From a bacterium (lineage in GTDB: Bacteria > Patescibacteriota > UBA1384 > JAGGWG01), in assembly GCA_021157605.1 (NCBI GenBank), contig JAGGWG010000011.1, positions 1 to 50,437 of the forward strand: a stretch of 50,437 nt of DNA, read 5' to 3'. The notes under the pieces are model-generated. The model ran no database searches. It was not told the DNA's origin and was given only the letters and a program-made list of their open reading frames with translations. Shown here one piece after another: positions 1,401 to 50,217 of this stretch (its first letter is position 1; each line of letters starts with the position of its first letter). The position numbers and the translations under genes were made by a program.

Positions 1401-1488
1401 TGGCGGAGGGGGTGGGAGTCGAACCCACAATCCCCTAAAGGGGAGCCGCTTTTCGAGAGCGGTGCCTTACCATTCAGCACACCCCTCC
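1401..1488 (-). tRNA. tRNA-Ser (anticodon CGA)
   Basis: Complete class II tRNA. The acceptor arm pairs GGAGGGG with CCCCUCC, discriminator is G, and CCA is encoded. The anticodon stem CCGCT/AGCGG holds loop CTCGAAA, giving CGA (reads UCG). A long variable arm and a normal T arm are present. A palindrome-filled relic of its 5' part lies 72 bp upstream. The 15 bp 5' of the gene recur upstream of tRNA-Ser(GCT) at the right end of the window. Confidence 0.95.
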
Positions 1489-1560: not shown

Positions 1561-1649
1561 CACCTTACTCCCGCCGTTGGCGGGACAAGACACCGCCTTT
1601 GGCGGGACAAGCCTGCCTGACGGCAGTCAGGCACTCGGGACACCCCTCC
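1561..1649 (-). pseudogene. Relic of tRNA-Ser 5' end with inserted palindromes
   Basis: Read on the minus strand, the first 10 nt (GGAGGGGTGT, from 1649) match tRNA-Ser. About 71 nt of GC-rich palindromes follow (1569-1639), and then GTAAGG (1563-1568), which continues the tRNA D-loop sequence. The tRNA match then stops. The inserted block replaces the middle of the D-loop. It holds three stem units: one built on CCTGACGGCAGTCAGG and two built on CCCGCC/GGCGG. The tRNA match is short, so taken alone the assignment is only moderate; the same layout at Leu and fMet strengthens it. Confidence 0.65.
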
Positions 1650-8815: not shown

Positions 8816-10423
8816 TCAGTTTTTAGCTAATTCCTTTGGAGTTACCCAAAAGCCTAGGTATTTCCCCAACATTAACCGCGTTTGGGCACTAATAGCTGGG
8901 AAAGAGCCAAAAAAGATAGCGGTAATCGGGACAAATACCCAGCTAACAAAAACTCCCAACGTTTTTATTTTACCATAATTTTTAGGACGAGGAGGTAAGA
9001 GAAGTACAGAGACAAAACCTGAAATTATAAGACCTATCCATGTTAAGGCAAGCAGCCTTTGAGCCAAAAAAGGAAGGTAATAAGAAAGAACTGAAGTTTG
9101 AAAATAAGGATTAAGCAGAAACGGCCACCAACCACCCAAAGCAATTAACAAAGAAGTTGAAGCCCAAGAAACATGGCTTTCCAGAAGCCGAAAAACCAAA
9201 CTCCACTTAGACCAAAAATTAATCTCTTTGTGCTTTAAACACTTTTTCACTAAATAAGGAAAATGCTCTACTCCCCAAGCCCAACGACGCTTTTGCAAAT
9301 ACTGATTCTTTAATGTCTGCCAAATAGAAGGGGCATAAATAGCATCCATATAAACAGGTATAAATATAGGAATACAACTGTGCCTCCCCTGATAACGGAA
9401 AAAAACGCGGTAATAAGTGCGTGAGTCTTCAGAAACAATTTTTGTGTCCCAAAAATCAATATCTACCAAAGTTTTAAAACTTAATGATTGCGAAGAGAAA
9501 TTGATCAGACGATAAGGACGTGTTGATTCAATCAACTGCCAAAAAGAGGAACCAAAAGCCACCAGTCTCACCAATGGCGGCACCTGCCAAATATTATTGC
9601 TATATAAAGGTATGGGTTGGAAGCTATGATAGATTCTATCAGCATGAAGCAGGTATTTATAAGTCAGGGCAGAAAAAAATGAATGAGCTGGACGGGTATC
9701 AGCATCAAAAATAGAAACAACAACTTTTTCATACTCTATCCCCTGTCTATCAATAAACTCTTTTAGTCTTTTGCCTGCCCAAGTAGCATTAGCTCCTTTG
9801 GCTTTTAGTTCTCCGACAATATTATCAGGGTGAACAGTTATTAAAAATTTATAAAAAACATCCTTAAACTCAGCTTTAAGACGCCGGGCAATTTGTTGCC
9901 CCTCTTTTCCAGACCGAGCCTCAGTAGCTAAAACTAAAATAATTCTCTTATTAGGAAAATCAGAATCAGCGACCGCAGAAATTGATTTGTAAAGCACTTC
10001 AAAAGGTTCTTTATAAGTTGTATAAATTACAGCGTGAAAAACTTCTGAAGGAGAAATAACCCTTTGGGGATGCCTGAGTAAATCCTTAAGGACTAAAATC
10101 TCCTCACTAATCCGCCGCCTTTCCAAAAGTGAAGAGTTTTTAGCTTTTTGTTTTAACCGCAAAAGTAGTTGCTGAGGGTTTTTAAGATAACGCAATCTTT
10201 CAGACCAGTTAATACTTTCTTCATACTTTAGGTGCCAGTAAGCGGATAATAAATAAACACCCATTACAAGAGCACGGTTAAGCCAATAAAAATCAAAAAG
10301 AATAATAAAAATTGCCACACCCTCAGGACAAAACAAAGAAAGAACAATAGGAAAAAATAAAACTAAGTAGCTCAAGCTGGCAGGTAAAATCTCCAAAAAA
10401 CGTTCAAAACCTTTCTTTTTCAT
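8816..10423 (-). CDS. Processive-type GT2 glycosyltransferase with membrane domain
   Basis: 535 aa: two N-terminal helices, a cytosolic GT2 domain beginning at about residue 130, then four or so C-terminal helices. Key residues are the second catalytic aspartates in FDADTRPAHSF, the D of VSEDSRTYYR, and the QKRRWAWG motif (QxxRW), as in cellulose/hyaluronan synthase-like enzymes. It probably makes or extends an envelope polysaccharide. It is translationally coupled to the small membrane gene upstream (one-base overlap at 10423). Product sugar unknown. Confidence 0.8.
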   Translation of the reverse strand: MKKKGFERFLEILPASLSYLVLFFPIVLSLFCPEGVAIFIILFDFYWLNRALVMGVYLLSAYWHLKYEESINWSERLRYLKNPQQLLLRLKQKAKNSSLLERRRISEEILVLKDLLRHPQRVISPSEVFHAVIYTTYKEPFEVLYKSISAVADSDFPNKRIILVLATEARSGKEGQQIARRLKAEFKDVFYKFLITVHPDNIVGELKAKGANATWAGKRLKEFIDRQGIEYEKVVVSIFDADTRPAHSFFSALTYKYLLHADRIYHSFQPIPLYSNNIWQVPPLVRLVAFGSSFWQLIESTRPYRLINFSSQSLSFKTLVDIDFWDTKIVSEDSRTYYRVFFRYQGRHSCIPIFIPVYMDAIYAPSIWQTLKNQYLQKRRWAWGVEHFPYLVKKCLKHKEINFWSKWSLVFRLLESHVSWASTSLLIALGGWWPFLLNPYFQTSVLSYYLPFLAQRLLALTWIGLIISGFVSVLLLPPRPKNYGKIKTLGVFVSWVFVPITAIFFGSFPAISAQTRLMLGKYLGFWVTPKELAKN

Positions 10424-33914: not shown

Positions 33915-33970
33915 GGAGCGGTAGTTCAGTTGGATAGAACGTCCCGACCTATGCGTCGGGAAGGTCGCGA
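33915..33970 (+). pseudogene. 5' relic of tRNA-Asp with palindrome in place of the anticodon arm
   Basis: GGAGCGG, TAGTTCAGTTGGATAGAACG and AGGTCGCG match the acceptor, D arm and variable loop of the intact tRNA-Asp at 34014. Between them the 17-nt anticodon stem-loop is replaced by the 20-bp palindrome TCCCGACCTATGCGTCGGGA (33942-33961). The match ends inside the T stem. A matching 3' relic lies beyond the intact gene at 34376. Confidence 0.85.
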
Positions 33971-34013: not shown

Positions 34014-34090
34014 GGGGCGGTAGTTCAGTTGGATAGAACGCCGGCCTGTCACGCCGGAGGTCGCGGGTTCAAATCCCGTCCGCCCCGCCA
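34014..34090 (+). tRNA. tRNA-Asp (anticodon GTC)
   Basis: Acceptor GGGGCGG/CCGCCCC, discriminator G, CCA encoded. Anticodon stem CCGGC/GCCGG with loop CTGTCAC gives GTC. Intact, and flanked by two relics of itself and a GIY-YIG remnant. Confidence 0.95.
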
Positions 34091-34107
34091 TTTTCTACCA
34101 TTCCATC

Positions 34108-34368
34108 ATGTAGGGTGGCTGGCTTTACATTCTTTACAGTCAATCGCGCAATCAGTACTACATTGGAAGCACTACTGATTTGAAACGCCGCCTAAAAGAA
34201 CACAAGAAGGGGAAACACCGCTTTTCTAAAACTCTGGGGAAATTTAATCTAGTCTTTGTTCAGCACTTTAAAAACATTAGAATCGCGCGCCGAAAAGAGA
34301 AACAGCTAAAAAAATGGAAACGCCGAGATTATATTGAGAAAATCATCAGGAAAGGAAAAATCCACTGA
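34108..34368 (+). pseudogene. GIY-YIG endonuclease, start disrupted
   Basis: The frame GGWLYILYSQSRNQYYIGSTTDLKRRLKEHKKG...EKQLKKWKRR is a complete single-domain GIY-YIG (UvrC N-terminal fold) protein of about 84 aa: WLYIL and YYIG strands, catalytic-type R and a KEKQLKKWKR helix. The only upstream ATG (34108) is followed at once by TAG in the same frame, so the full domain has no normal start codon; the first usable start is a TTG at 34180, which loses both signature strands. Probably an inactivated mobile endonuclease. It lies between intact tRNA-Asp and its 3' relic; a sister gene sits at tRNA-fMet (42931). Confidence 0.75.
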
Positions 34369-34375
34369 AAAGCTT

Positions 34376-34442
34376 TTCAGTTAGATAGAACGTCCCGACC
34401 TATGCGTCGGGAAGGTCGCGGGTTCAAATCCCGTCCGCCCCG
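34376..34442 (+). pseudogene. 3' relic of tRNA-Asp with the same palindrome
   Basis: Begins in the D arm (TTCAGTTAGATAGAACG), carries TCCCGACCTATGCGTCGGGA at 34393-34412 instead of the anticodon arm, and keeps a perfect variable loop, T arm and CCGCCCCG acceptor end. The first 45 bp (34376-34420) repeat 33925-33969 with one mismatch, so the intact tRNA plus GIY-YIG segment is flanked by 45-bp direct repeats. It cannot be a working tRNA: no acceptor 5' strand and an anticodon arm of wrong length. Confidence 0.85.
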
Positions 34443-34504
34443 AAGTAAAGGATTGAAAATTTAGTGAACGCGTAATAAACTGAAAATAGAAAATAAGCCC
34501 ATAA

Positions 34505-42750: not shown

Positions 42751-42760
42751 GAACTCCCTA

Positions 42761-42895: not shown

Positions 42896-42967
42896 TTGCG
42901 GGGGAAGGATTTGAACCTCCGACCTCCGGGTTATGAGCCCGGCGAGCTACCACTGCTCCACCCCGCA
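42896..42967 (-). tRNA. Initiator tRNA-fMet (anticodon CAT)
   Basis: Close to bacterial initiators (GGGGTGGAGCAG..., loop CTCATAA, three G-C pairs GGG/CCC in the anticodon stem, T arm GGAGG). Discriminator A; no CCA. The first pair is U1-A72 instead of the usual C1-A72 mismatch. Its 5' half overlaps the end of the GIY-YIG gene on the same strand and is duplicated at 43221-43279. Confidence 0.93.
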
Positions 42968-43218
42968 TTAATCTTTGGCCTCTTGCCCCTGTAAATCTGC
43001 TCTCTATAATAACCCGACTTTAACTTTTTTTCCAGTTTTCTTGCCTCTCGCCGCGAGCAACAACTCCAGTAAGCTATTAGTTTGTAAGGAGCAAAAGCCT
43101 TGGTAGATTTATTCTGCTCAGAATTATGCTCTTTTATTCTTCTTGCAAGATTGTTGGTCAAACCAATATAAAAATATTTCTTCTTTATGCTTTTTAAAAT
43201 ATACACAAAATAACGCAT
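42931..43218 (-). CDS. Single-domain GIY-YIG endonuclease inserted at tRNA-fMet
   Basis: 95 aa from the ATG at 43218: MRYFVYILKSIKKKYFYIGLTNNLARRIKEHN, with the VYI and YIG strands, catalytic-type R26 and a basic SRREARKLEKKLKSG helix. Single-domain GIY-YIG proteins of this type cut DNA and are related to homing endonucleases. The frame continues through the 5' flank and D arm of intact tRNA-fMet and ends at a TAA made of the last anticodon base plus the two following A's, so its last 12-13 residues are tRNA-encoded. The longer frame to 43263 runs through the palindrome and is rejected. Both ends abut copies of the fMet 5' half. Confidence 0.85.
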   Translation of the reverse strand: MRYFVYILKSIKKKYFYIGLTNNLARRIKEHNSEQNKSTKAFAPYKLIAYWSCCSRREARKLEKKLKSGYYREQIYRGKRPKINAGWSSGSSPGS

Positions 43219-43220
43219 AA

Positions 43221-43279
43221 TTATGAGCCCGGCGAGCCCTGCCTGCCGGCAGGCAGGTACCACTCTGCTCCACCCCGCA
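43221..43279 (-). pseudogene. 5' relic of tRNA-fMet with a palindrome in the D-loop
   Basis: Reading from 43279, TGCGGGGTGGAGCAG then (AG)TGGTA, a 20-bp palindrome CCTGCCTGCCGGCAGGCAGG (43238-43257), then GCTCGCCGGGCTCATAA, identical to the intact gene up to the end of the anticodon loop. After that the GIY-YIG start region follows at once. The 10 bp 5' of both copies (CAAAGATTAA) also match. Confidence 0.9.
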
Positions 43280-43346
43280 TTAATCTTTGATATAACACAG
43301 CAAGTGTAAGTTAAAAACTTTCCTTTTTCAAGGGAATTACTTCATC

Positions 43347-49969: not shown

Positions 49970-50053
49970 TGCCCGGGGAGGGAGTCGAACCCTCAAGGGT
50001 TTAGGCCCACTGGATCCTAAGTCCAGCGCGTCTACCAATTCCGCCACCCGGGC
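49970..50053 (-). tRNA. tRNA-Leu (anticodon TAG)
   Basis: Class II tRNA: acceptor GCCCGGG/CCCGGGC, discriminator A, anticodon stem CTGGA/TCCAG with loop CTTAGGA, long variable arm, T arm GAGGG/CCCTC. No CCA. A 5' relic with palindromes lies 66 bp upstream. Confidence 0.95.
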
Positions 50054-50119: not shown

Positions 50120-50199
50120 GCGCGTCTACCCCTGCCTGCCCTGACTGCCGTCAGGCAGGCGGCAGGCAACCCCGCTGCAGGCGCGGGCGCCACCCGGGC
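50120..50199 (-). pseudogene. 5' relic of tRNA-Leu with palindromes in the D-loop
   Basis: From 50199, GCCCGGGTGGCG matches tRNA-Leu, then about 57 bp of GC-rich palindromic sequence (50131-50187), then GGTAGACGCGC, which continues the tRNA up to the anticodon stem, where the match stops. The insert contains the same 21-bp core (50140-50160) as the tRNA-Ser relic (1611-1631), in inverse orientation relative to the window. Confidence 0.85.
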
Positions 50200-50217
50200 T
50201 TTTAAAGCCCTCTTTTT
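50196..50217 (+). terminator. Terminator-like hairpin on the plus strand
   Basis: GGGCT-TTTAA-AGCCC followed by TCTTTTT. No plus-strand gene precedes it, so it may stop antisense transcription or belong to the palindrome cluster of the tRNA-Leu relic. Confidence 0.35.

Follow-up and report, generated by a model that had tools for sequence, protein, structure and literature searches.

The locus lies in a window of 50,437 nt (the whole stretch of DNA that was analysed) and is composed of an intact tRNA-fMet gene, a GIY-YIG endonuclease gene, and a displaced 5′ half of the same tRNA gene that is split by a palindrome (Table 1). The GIY-YIG reading frame matched PF01541 above the cut-off (E 2.1e-14). 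Its ATG is situated 2 nt past the fMet relic, and at the other end its last codons and TAA stop fall inside the intact tRNA-fMet, with the stop in the anticodon loop. The minus-strand sequence of the relic is CAAAGATTAATGCGGGGTGGAGCAGAGTGGTA [CCTGCCTGCCGGCAGGCAGG] GCTCGCCGGGCTCATAA, and its alignment to the intact gene showed that the two are identical once the bracketed palindrome and one AG, 22 extra bases in all, are set aside. The duplicated block of 49 nt begins 10 nt upstream of the tRNA and stops in the anticodon loop after CATAA. When the 22 extra bases are subtracted from the distance between the relic and the intact copy, 290 bp remain, which are filled by the GIY-YIG reading frame; this frame is the sole content of the insert, in which no tyrosine integrase was found. 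The locus contains a minimal element, consisting of a GIY-YIG gene and a 49-nt copy of the tRNA 5′ half (290 bp in total), that inserted at tRNA-fMet, regenerated the tRNA, and left the displaced half behind. The end points of the element are a regenerated tRNA and a displaced fragment, as in a tRNA island. A group I intron with a GIY-YIG reading frame was ruled out, since only tRNA models scored above the Rfam gathering score and the intact tRNA is continuous.

Table 1. Positions of the tRNA genes, tRNA relics, GIY-YIG genes, and palindrome in the window.
Feature	Position	Strand	Remarks
Intact Ser-CGA	1401-1488		Partner of the Ser relic
tRNA-Ser 5′ relic	1612..1649	-	Palindrome variant 1612-1631 in D-loop; further hairpin 1569-1585
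tRNA-Asp 5′ relic	33915..33970	+	Anticodon-loop lesion, without an inserted palindrome
Intact tRNA-Asp	34014..34090	+	Between both Asp relics
Second GIY-YIG domain	34117..34326	+	No in-frame ATG before the domain; nearest ATG followed directly by TAG
tRNA-Asp 3′ relic	34378..34443	+	Same anticodon-loop lesion as the Asp 5′ relic, likewise without an insert
Intact tRNA-fMet (CAT)	42896..42967	-	Regenerated copy
GIY-YIG endonuclease ORF	42931..43218	-	95 codons + stop; PF01541
tRNA-fMet relic, 5′ half	43221..43289	-	10 nt leader + tRNA 1-38, split by the palindrome
Perfect 20-bp palindrome CCTGCCTGCCGGCAGGCAGG	43238..43257	.	Inserted at tRNA position 21/22
Intact Leu-TAG	49970-50053		Partner of the Leu relic
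tRNA-Leu relic	50121..50200	-	D-loop holds nested palindromes, 20-mer inside 20-mer

An earlier note on this DNA had described a perfect 20-bp palindrome placed exactly between GGTA and GCTC of the fMet relic, and both the sequence and the alignment confirmed it. The insertion of CCTGCCTGCCGGCAGGCAGG into the dead tRNA half is clean, as that note had held, with no tRNA base lost. The 2-nt insertion reported nearby probably represents, judging from the sequences of relatives, a normal D-loop length difference: the D-loop length of the relic (GGAGCAG, 2 nt, and TGGTAGCTC) is common to three of five relatives with a pattern-matching fMet, and the short form of the intact gene occurs in one other of the same five. 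Two further readings of the relic were dropped. T runs were absent on both sides of the palindrome, which removed an intrinsic terminator from consideration, and there was no evidence for split or trans-acting tRNA halves, as the relic halves adjoin intact genes.

Across the 575,489-bp genome, matches to the palindrome with up to 3 mismatches were located in five places, compared with none for the reversed control pattern; within the window, no such site is expected by chance. All five correspond to partial copies of stable-RNA genes, namely the fMet relic, the Ser (1612) and Leu (50140) relics, a Leu-GAG relic on contig C7, and a relic of the 16S rRNA 5′ end on contig C16, and nested palindromes were present in both Leu relics and in the 16S relic. 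The placement of five of five copies in relics has a p of about 1e-9 when a generous 1000 nt of relic is assumed, even with only 10% of the genome available. Additionally, seven strong GC hairpins were counted in the whole window: tRNA relics account for five, the variable arm of a tRNA-Ser for one, and a terminator at 42760 for the last; five of seven thus fell inside 362 nt of relic, or 0.7% of the window (binomial p about 1e-10, variable arm excluded). Based on these match counts and enrichment statistics, a chance origin of the placement was dropped. A census of the stretches around tRNAs, covering 43 neighbourhoods of which 5 were incomplete, revealed two further tRNA relics with hairpins of other families, Glu (C2) and Ala (C9).

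Several of these relics show features of their own. The 16S relic (G000:C16, L005, approximately 1464-1650) is a 5′ fragment of the 16S rRNA gene duplicated just upstream of the intact gene, with the nested palindromes between GGTGAGC and GCTGGCGG. In the tRNA-Glu region (G000:C2, approximately 9800-10100; L215), the displaced copy has the anticodon TTC and the adjacent intact copy CTC, a possible anticodon change at replacement. Regarding tRNA-Asp, the GIY-YIG gene beside it (34105-34368) may be decaying.

Among relatives, the palindrome (at most 2 mismatches) was detected in 23 of the 61 genomes searched, with up to 63 copies per genome and none for the reversed control, and exact copies of the 20-mer were also found in Bacteroidota, Omnitrophota, Nitrospirae, and others. 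The 213 unique copies divide into 18 that cross a tRNA junction, 7 that touch a tRNA or lie nearby, and 188 with no tRNA similarity. Because most copies lie outside tRNA sequence, the palindrome is a dispersed repeat, some copies of which come to lie in tRNA relics, and the segment in the fMet relic is a copy of this REP-like repeat, precisely inserted in the D-loop of the displaced half. The suggestion of the earlier note that the palindrome might serve as the end of the element did not hold, given these 188 copies and the unrelated hairpins carried by other GIY-YIG/tRNA elements. For its other suggestion, that the palindrome may mark used targets, no separate evidence emerged. At the borders of 160 exact sites, neither a target-site duplication or strict target motif nor a fixed flanking tetranucleotide of the GTAG/CGTC type was found; A was depleted at the first outward base, with some excess of T. 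A Y1/RAYT transposase was not found in this genome, which is 96% complete. Y1 transposases were present in 17 of the 23 palindrome-bearing genomes, with 6 lacking them, and in 15 of the 38 others (p 0.016, uncorrected for phylogeny), which weakly suggests RAYT as the hairpin source. GIY-YIG and Y1 (RAYT-like) genes were situated about 0.4-1.1 kb apart in three genomes (G038:C15 58761-60275, G003:C8 1118-1954, and G036:C42 303-1820). A phage origin of the palindrome was dropped, as only 33 stretches were found among 2.9 million viral contigs.

The association of GIY-YIG genes with tRNAs was common among relatives. GIY-YIG genes were identified in 375 of the 379 genomes sampled from the phylum, and 90 of 214 unique GIY-YIG genes had a tRNA within 400 bp, the tRNAs lying predominantly on the same strand (115 versus 5 on the opposite strand, p 3e-28). 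For 38 tRNAs, the start was located 35-80 nt past the end of the GIY-YIG domain. Fourteen isotypes were represented 3′ of the GIY-YIG gene, and an association specific to fMet was consequently dropped. When alignments permitting one long insert were used, about 29 of the 42 elements with a 3′ tRNA were found to have a 5′ relic upstream of the GIY-YIG gene, and in many elements only 0-14 nt separate the relic end from the start of the GIY-YIG domain. About 24 of these 29 relics contained hairpin inserts, mostly in the D-arm; in L249, L271, L280, and L406, an altered anticodon arm instead of an insert may account for the hairpin, and one relic (L265) had no hairpin. Hairpin scores of at least 14 were reached by 25 of 29 relics and 33 of 384 control windows (p 4e-20), and scores of at least 16 by 22 of 29 and 15 of 384, respectively (p 6e-21). 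The relic hairpins belong to many unrelated sequence families. Ten gap-free relics differed from the intact copy by 3 mismatches in 289 nt. The alignments favour identity; a pristine insert-free relic would nevertheless be the easiest to find, and none was seen among the 29. Since the relics are otherwise nearly identical to the intact copy, the hairpins arrive early, and their presence in nearly every displaced tRNA half across many relatives indicates a recurrent process and not a one-off accident.

Hairpins were likewise found in 3′ relics (L024, with two; L329; L384; L232, with two) and in relics without a GIY-YIG gene. The same layout was identified in a Flavobacteriales MAG (L163) and probably also occurs in Agriterribacter humi (L107). 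L163 (2083-2385) contains two tRNA-Leu relics in tandem, both with the palindrome at 15/16 and with identical spacer ends, a pattern suggesting that one small element inserted repeatedly. In L232 (G045:C9, 1440-1975), an old tRNA-Leu-CAA is split by a GIY-YIG gene together with a complete new tRNA-Leu whose acceptor stem differs, and palindromes, three in total, are located in both dead halves. L458 contains a near-complete dead tRNA-Leu-TAG with the palindrome in the D-loop, adjoining an intact Leu-TAG of different sequence. The proposal that the palindrome kills the old copy is moot at fMet, where the 3′ half is already absent; the proposal is applicable to near-complete 3′ relics, L024 and L458 among them. 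Finally, in L459 (1491-1750), an old dead tRNA-Arg-CCT bears a palindrome at about 10/11, and a complete new tRNA-Arg-CCT is situated between inverted arms at 21/22 (D-loop) of the old one; this insert resembles a hairpin element that carries a rescuing tRNA as its cargo.

When the positions of about 45 hairpin inserts were read by hand, approximately 34 were assigned to the D-arm, 6 to the anticodon loop or its edge, 2 to the variable loop, and 3 to the T loop or its edge. The acceptor, anticodon, and T stems yielded no inserts, with the reservation that detection is difficult within about 8 nt of the relic ends and that one L246 hairpin may lie near 7/8. Insertion positions are thus not scattered at random with respect to tRNA structure; random scatter was the outcome that the earlier note had named as refuting its proposal. 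The site between GGTA and GCTC, true for the fMet relic, is only one among several insert positions, which include 9/10, 12/13, 17/18, 21/22, 23/24, 31/32, 53/54, and others, and the same palindrome occupies different tRNA positions in different elements; a fixed address at 21/22 was consequently dropped. As the relics are mostly 5′ halves with the D-arm in their middle, and as end inserts are hard to detect, targeting of loops and insertion in the middle of the repeat are inseparable here.

The explanation that we tentatively prefer is that the GIY-YIG element makes a tRNA copy redundant and that REP-like mobile hairpins enter tRNA-like DNA and survive only there. We infer the insertion mechanism of the hairpins as follows. 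By analogy with SegB in phages, the GIY-YIG protein would cut or nick tRNA genes, and repair would place its gene beside the restored tRNA, with a redundant half left over. Foldable DNA, including tRNA genes, the 5′ end of 16S, and other palindromes, would be the preferred target of short mobile hairpins, and a hairpin would then finish off the redundant tRNA copy. Because a hit in the sole functional tRNA would be lethal, hits would survive only in the redundant copy, and the palindromes nested in palindromes in the Leu and 16S relics fit insertion into foldable DNA. The palindrome would accordingly be a passenger that records where mobile hairpins strike. Counting against this explanation, no hairpin-moving enzyme was found in this genome; furthermore, the preference for tRNAs may in part be peculiar to this genome, as most copies in relatives lie outside tRNA relics. 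The same location of most copies elsewhere would suit a dispersed repeat that simply landed in expendable DNA, a very unlikely account in view of the enrichment of all five copies in relics (p about 1e-9) and of the recurrence over genomes and hairpin families. A further version, a tRNA-replacement system founded on mobile hairpins that target tRNA loops, some of them with a complete replacement tRNA in their own loop (L459), and with GIY-YIG genes as hitch-hikers that pass between phyla, is considered unlikely.

Survivorship could also produce interrupted relics. Slippage or recombination between the relic and the intact copy would delete the element, and a hairpin in the middle of the relic would break the direct repeat around the GIY-YIG gene, so that only interrupted relics persist long enough. 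The virtual absence of pristine hairpin-free relics among the 29, the interior position of the inserts within the duplicated block, and the two inserts in the longer relics (L024, L232) are all consistent with this lock-in, which would suit 5′ relics, 3′ relics, and relics without GIY-YIG genes alike. However, L129 retains 32 uninterrupted identical nt despite its hairpin, and lock-in explains neither why the lesions are hairpins rather than substitutions nor the near absence of hairpins elsewhere in the window and of the palindrome elsewhere in the genome; we regard it as somewhat unlikely. Relics nearly free of other mutations, yet nearly all with hairpins, would also be expected if a single break-repair event laid down the hairpin, installed the GIY-YIG gene, and duplicated the tRNA half, by filler synthesis or template switching where a nuclease had cut the D-arm or anticodon loop. 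The clustering of inserts in these two regions and the cutting within tRNA genes by phage SegB (PMC13096335) point in the same direction. Such a concurrent origin is nevertheless distinctly unlikely, given that the palindrome precisely matches a dispersed family common to several genomes, with clean borders on both sides, that it occupies different tRNA positions in different elements, and that relics without GIY-YIG genes also bear hairpins. The short distance between relic and GIY-YIG domain in many elements would fit a functional 5′-UTR hairpin, with the relic giving a tRNA promoter and the hairpin stabilising or regulating the GIY-YIG transcript; the hairpins in 3′ relics behind the GIY-YIG gene and in relics without such a gene make this role highly improbable.

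If the preferred explanation, a redundant tRNA copy entered by mobile hairpins, is right, tiny nuclease elements replace tRNA genes in place in bacteria with very small genomes, each leaving a readable scar. These scars would amount to a catalogue of target sites, a time-ordered record of tRNA turnover, and a natural assay for the insertion sites of mobile hairpins, a question that bears on REP-like repeats generally. They would also account for odd annotations, for example, GIY-YIG proteins with their last residues encoded by a tRNA gene.

No earlier description combining a tRNA-island layout, a SegB-type nuclease, and REP-like hairpins in the displaced half was found in the open-access literature; the separate parts resemble several known systems. 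REP/RAYT repeats are dispersed palindromes of 20-40 bp that show no target duplication and whose mobility is deduced (PMC3733652). The palindrome described here is likewise short, dispersed, free of target duplication, and mobile by inference; in contrast, it has no conserved GTAG or CGTC border tag, has no RAYT gene in this genome, and occurs in relics of tRNA and 16S genes. Selfish hairpins that invade genes, RNA genes included, are also represented by the Rickettsia palindromic elements, which are longer and lie in frame within proteins, and by the double-hairpin elements of Allomyces mitochondria. To our knowledge, no hairpin element of the Rickettsia or Allomyces type is tied to GIY-YIG/tRNA duplications.

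In CPR bacteria, insertions with LAGLIDADG nucleases occur in rRNA genes (PMC11270868). They too are homing-nuclease elements of stable-RNA genes, and their hosts are small uncultured bacteria broadly similar to the present one, which its genome size and the composition of its relatives suggest to be a CPR (Patescibacteria) member. Those insertions are intron-like and interrupt the gene, whereas in the present case the tRNA is regenerated and no match to an intron model was obtained. SegB of phages T4/T6 and its relatives are free-standing GIY-YIG homing endonucleases that are tied to tRNA genes and cut inside them (PMC13096335). The elements described here share a GIY-YIG gene adjoining tRNAs of many isotypes and a tRNA 5′ end homologous to the 3′ end of the nuclease gene; they differ in their location on bacterial chromosomes, in the size of the protein (about 95 aa), and in the recurrent tRNA half relics with hairpin inserts. 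The closest parallel in layout is with integrative elements of the Islander type, which split the target tRNA, restore it, and leave the displaced fragment to mark the other end (PMC4383910). Here too the target tRNA is regenerated and the displaced fragment lies at the other end; in contrast to Islanders, the element measures about 290 bp, a GIY-YIG reading frame replaces the integrase, and the displaced fragment is usually the 5′ half and bears hairpins.
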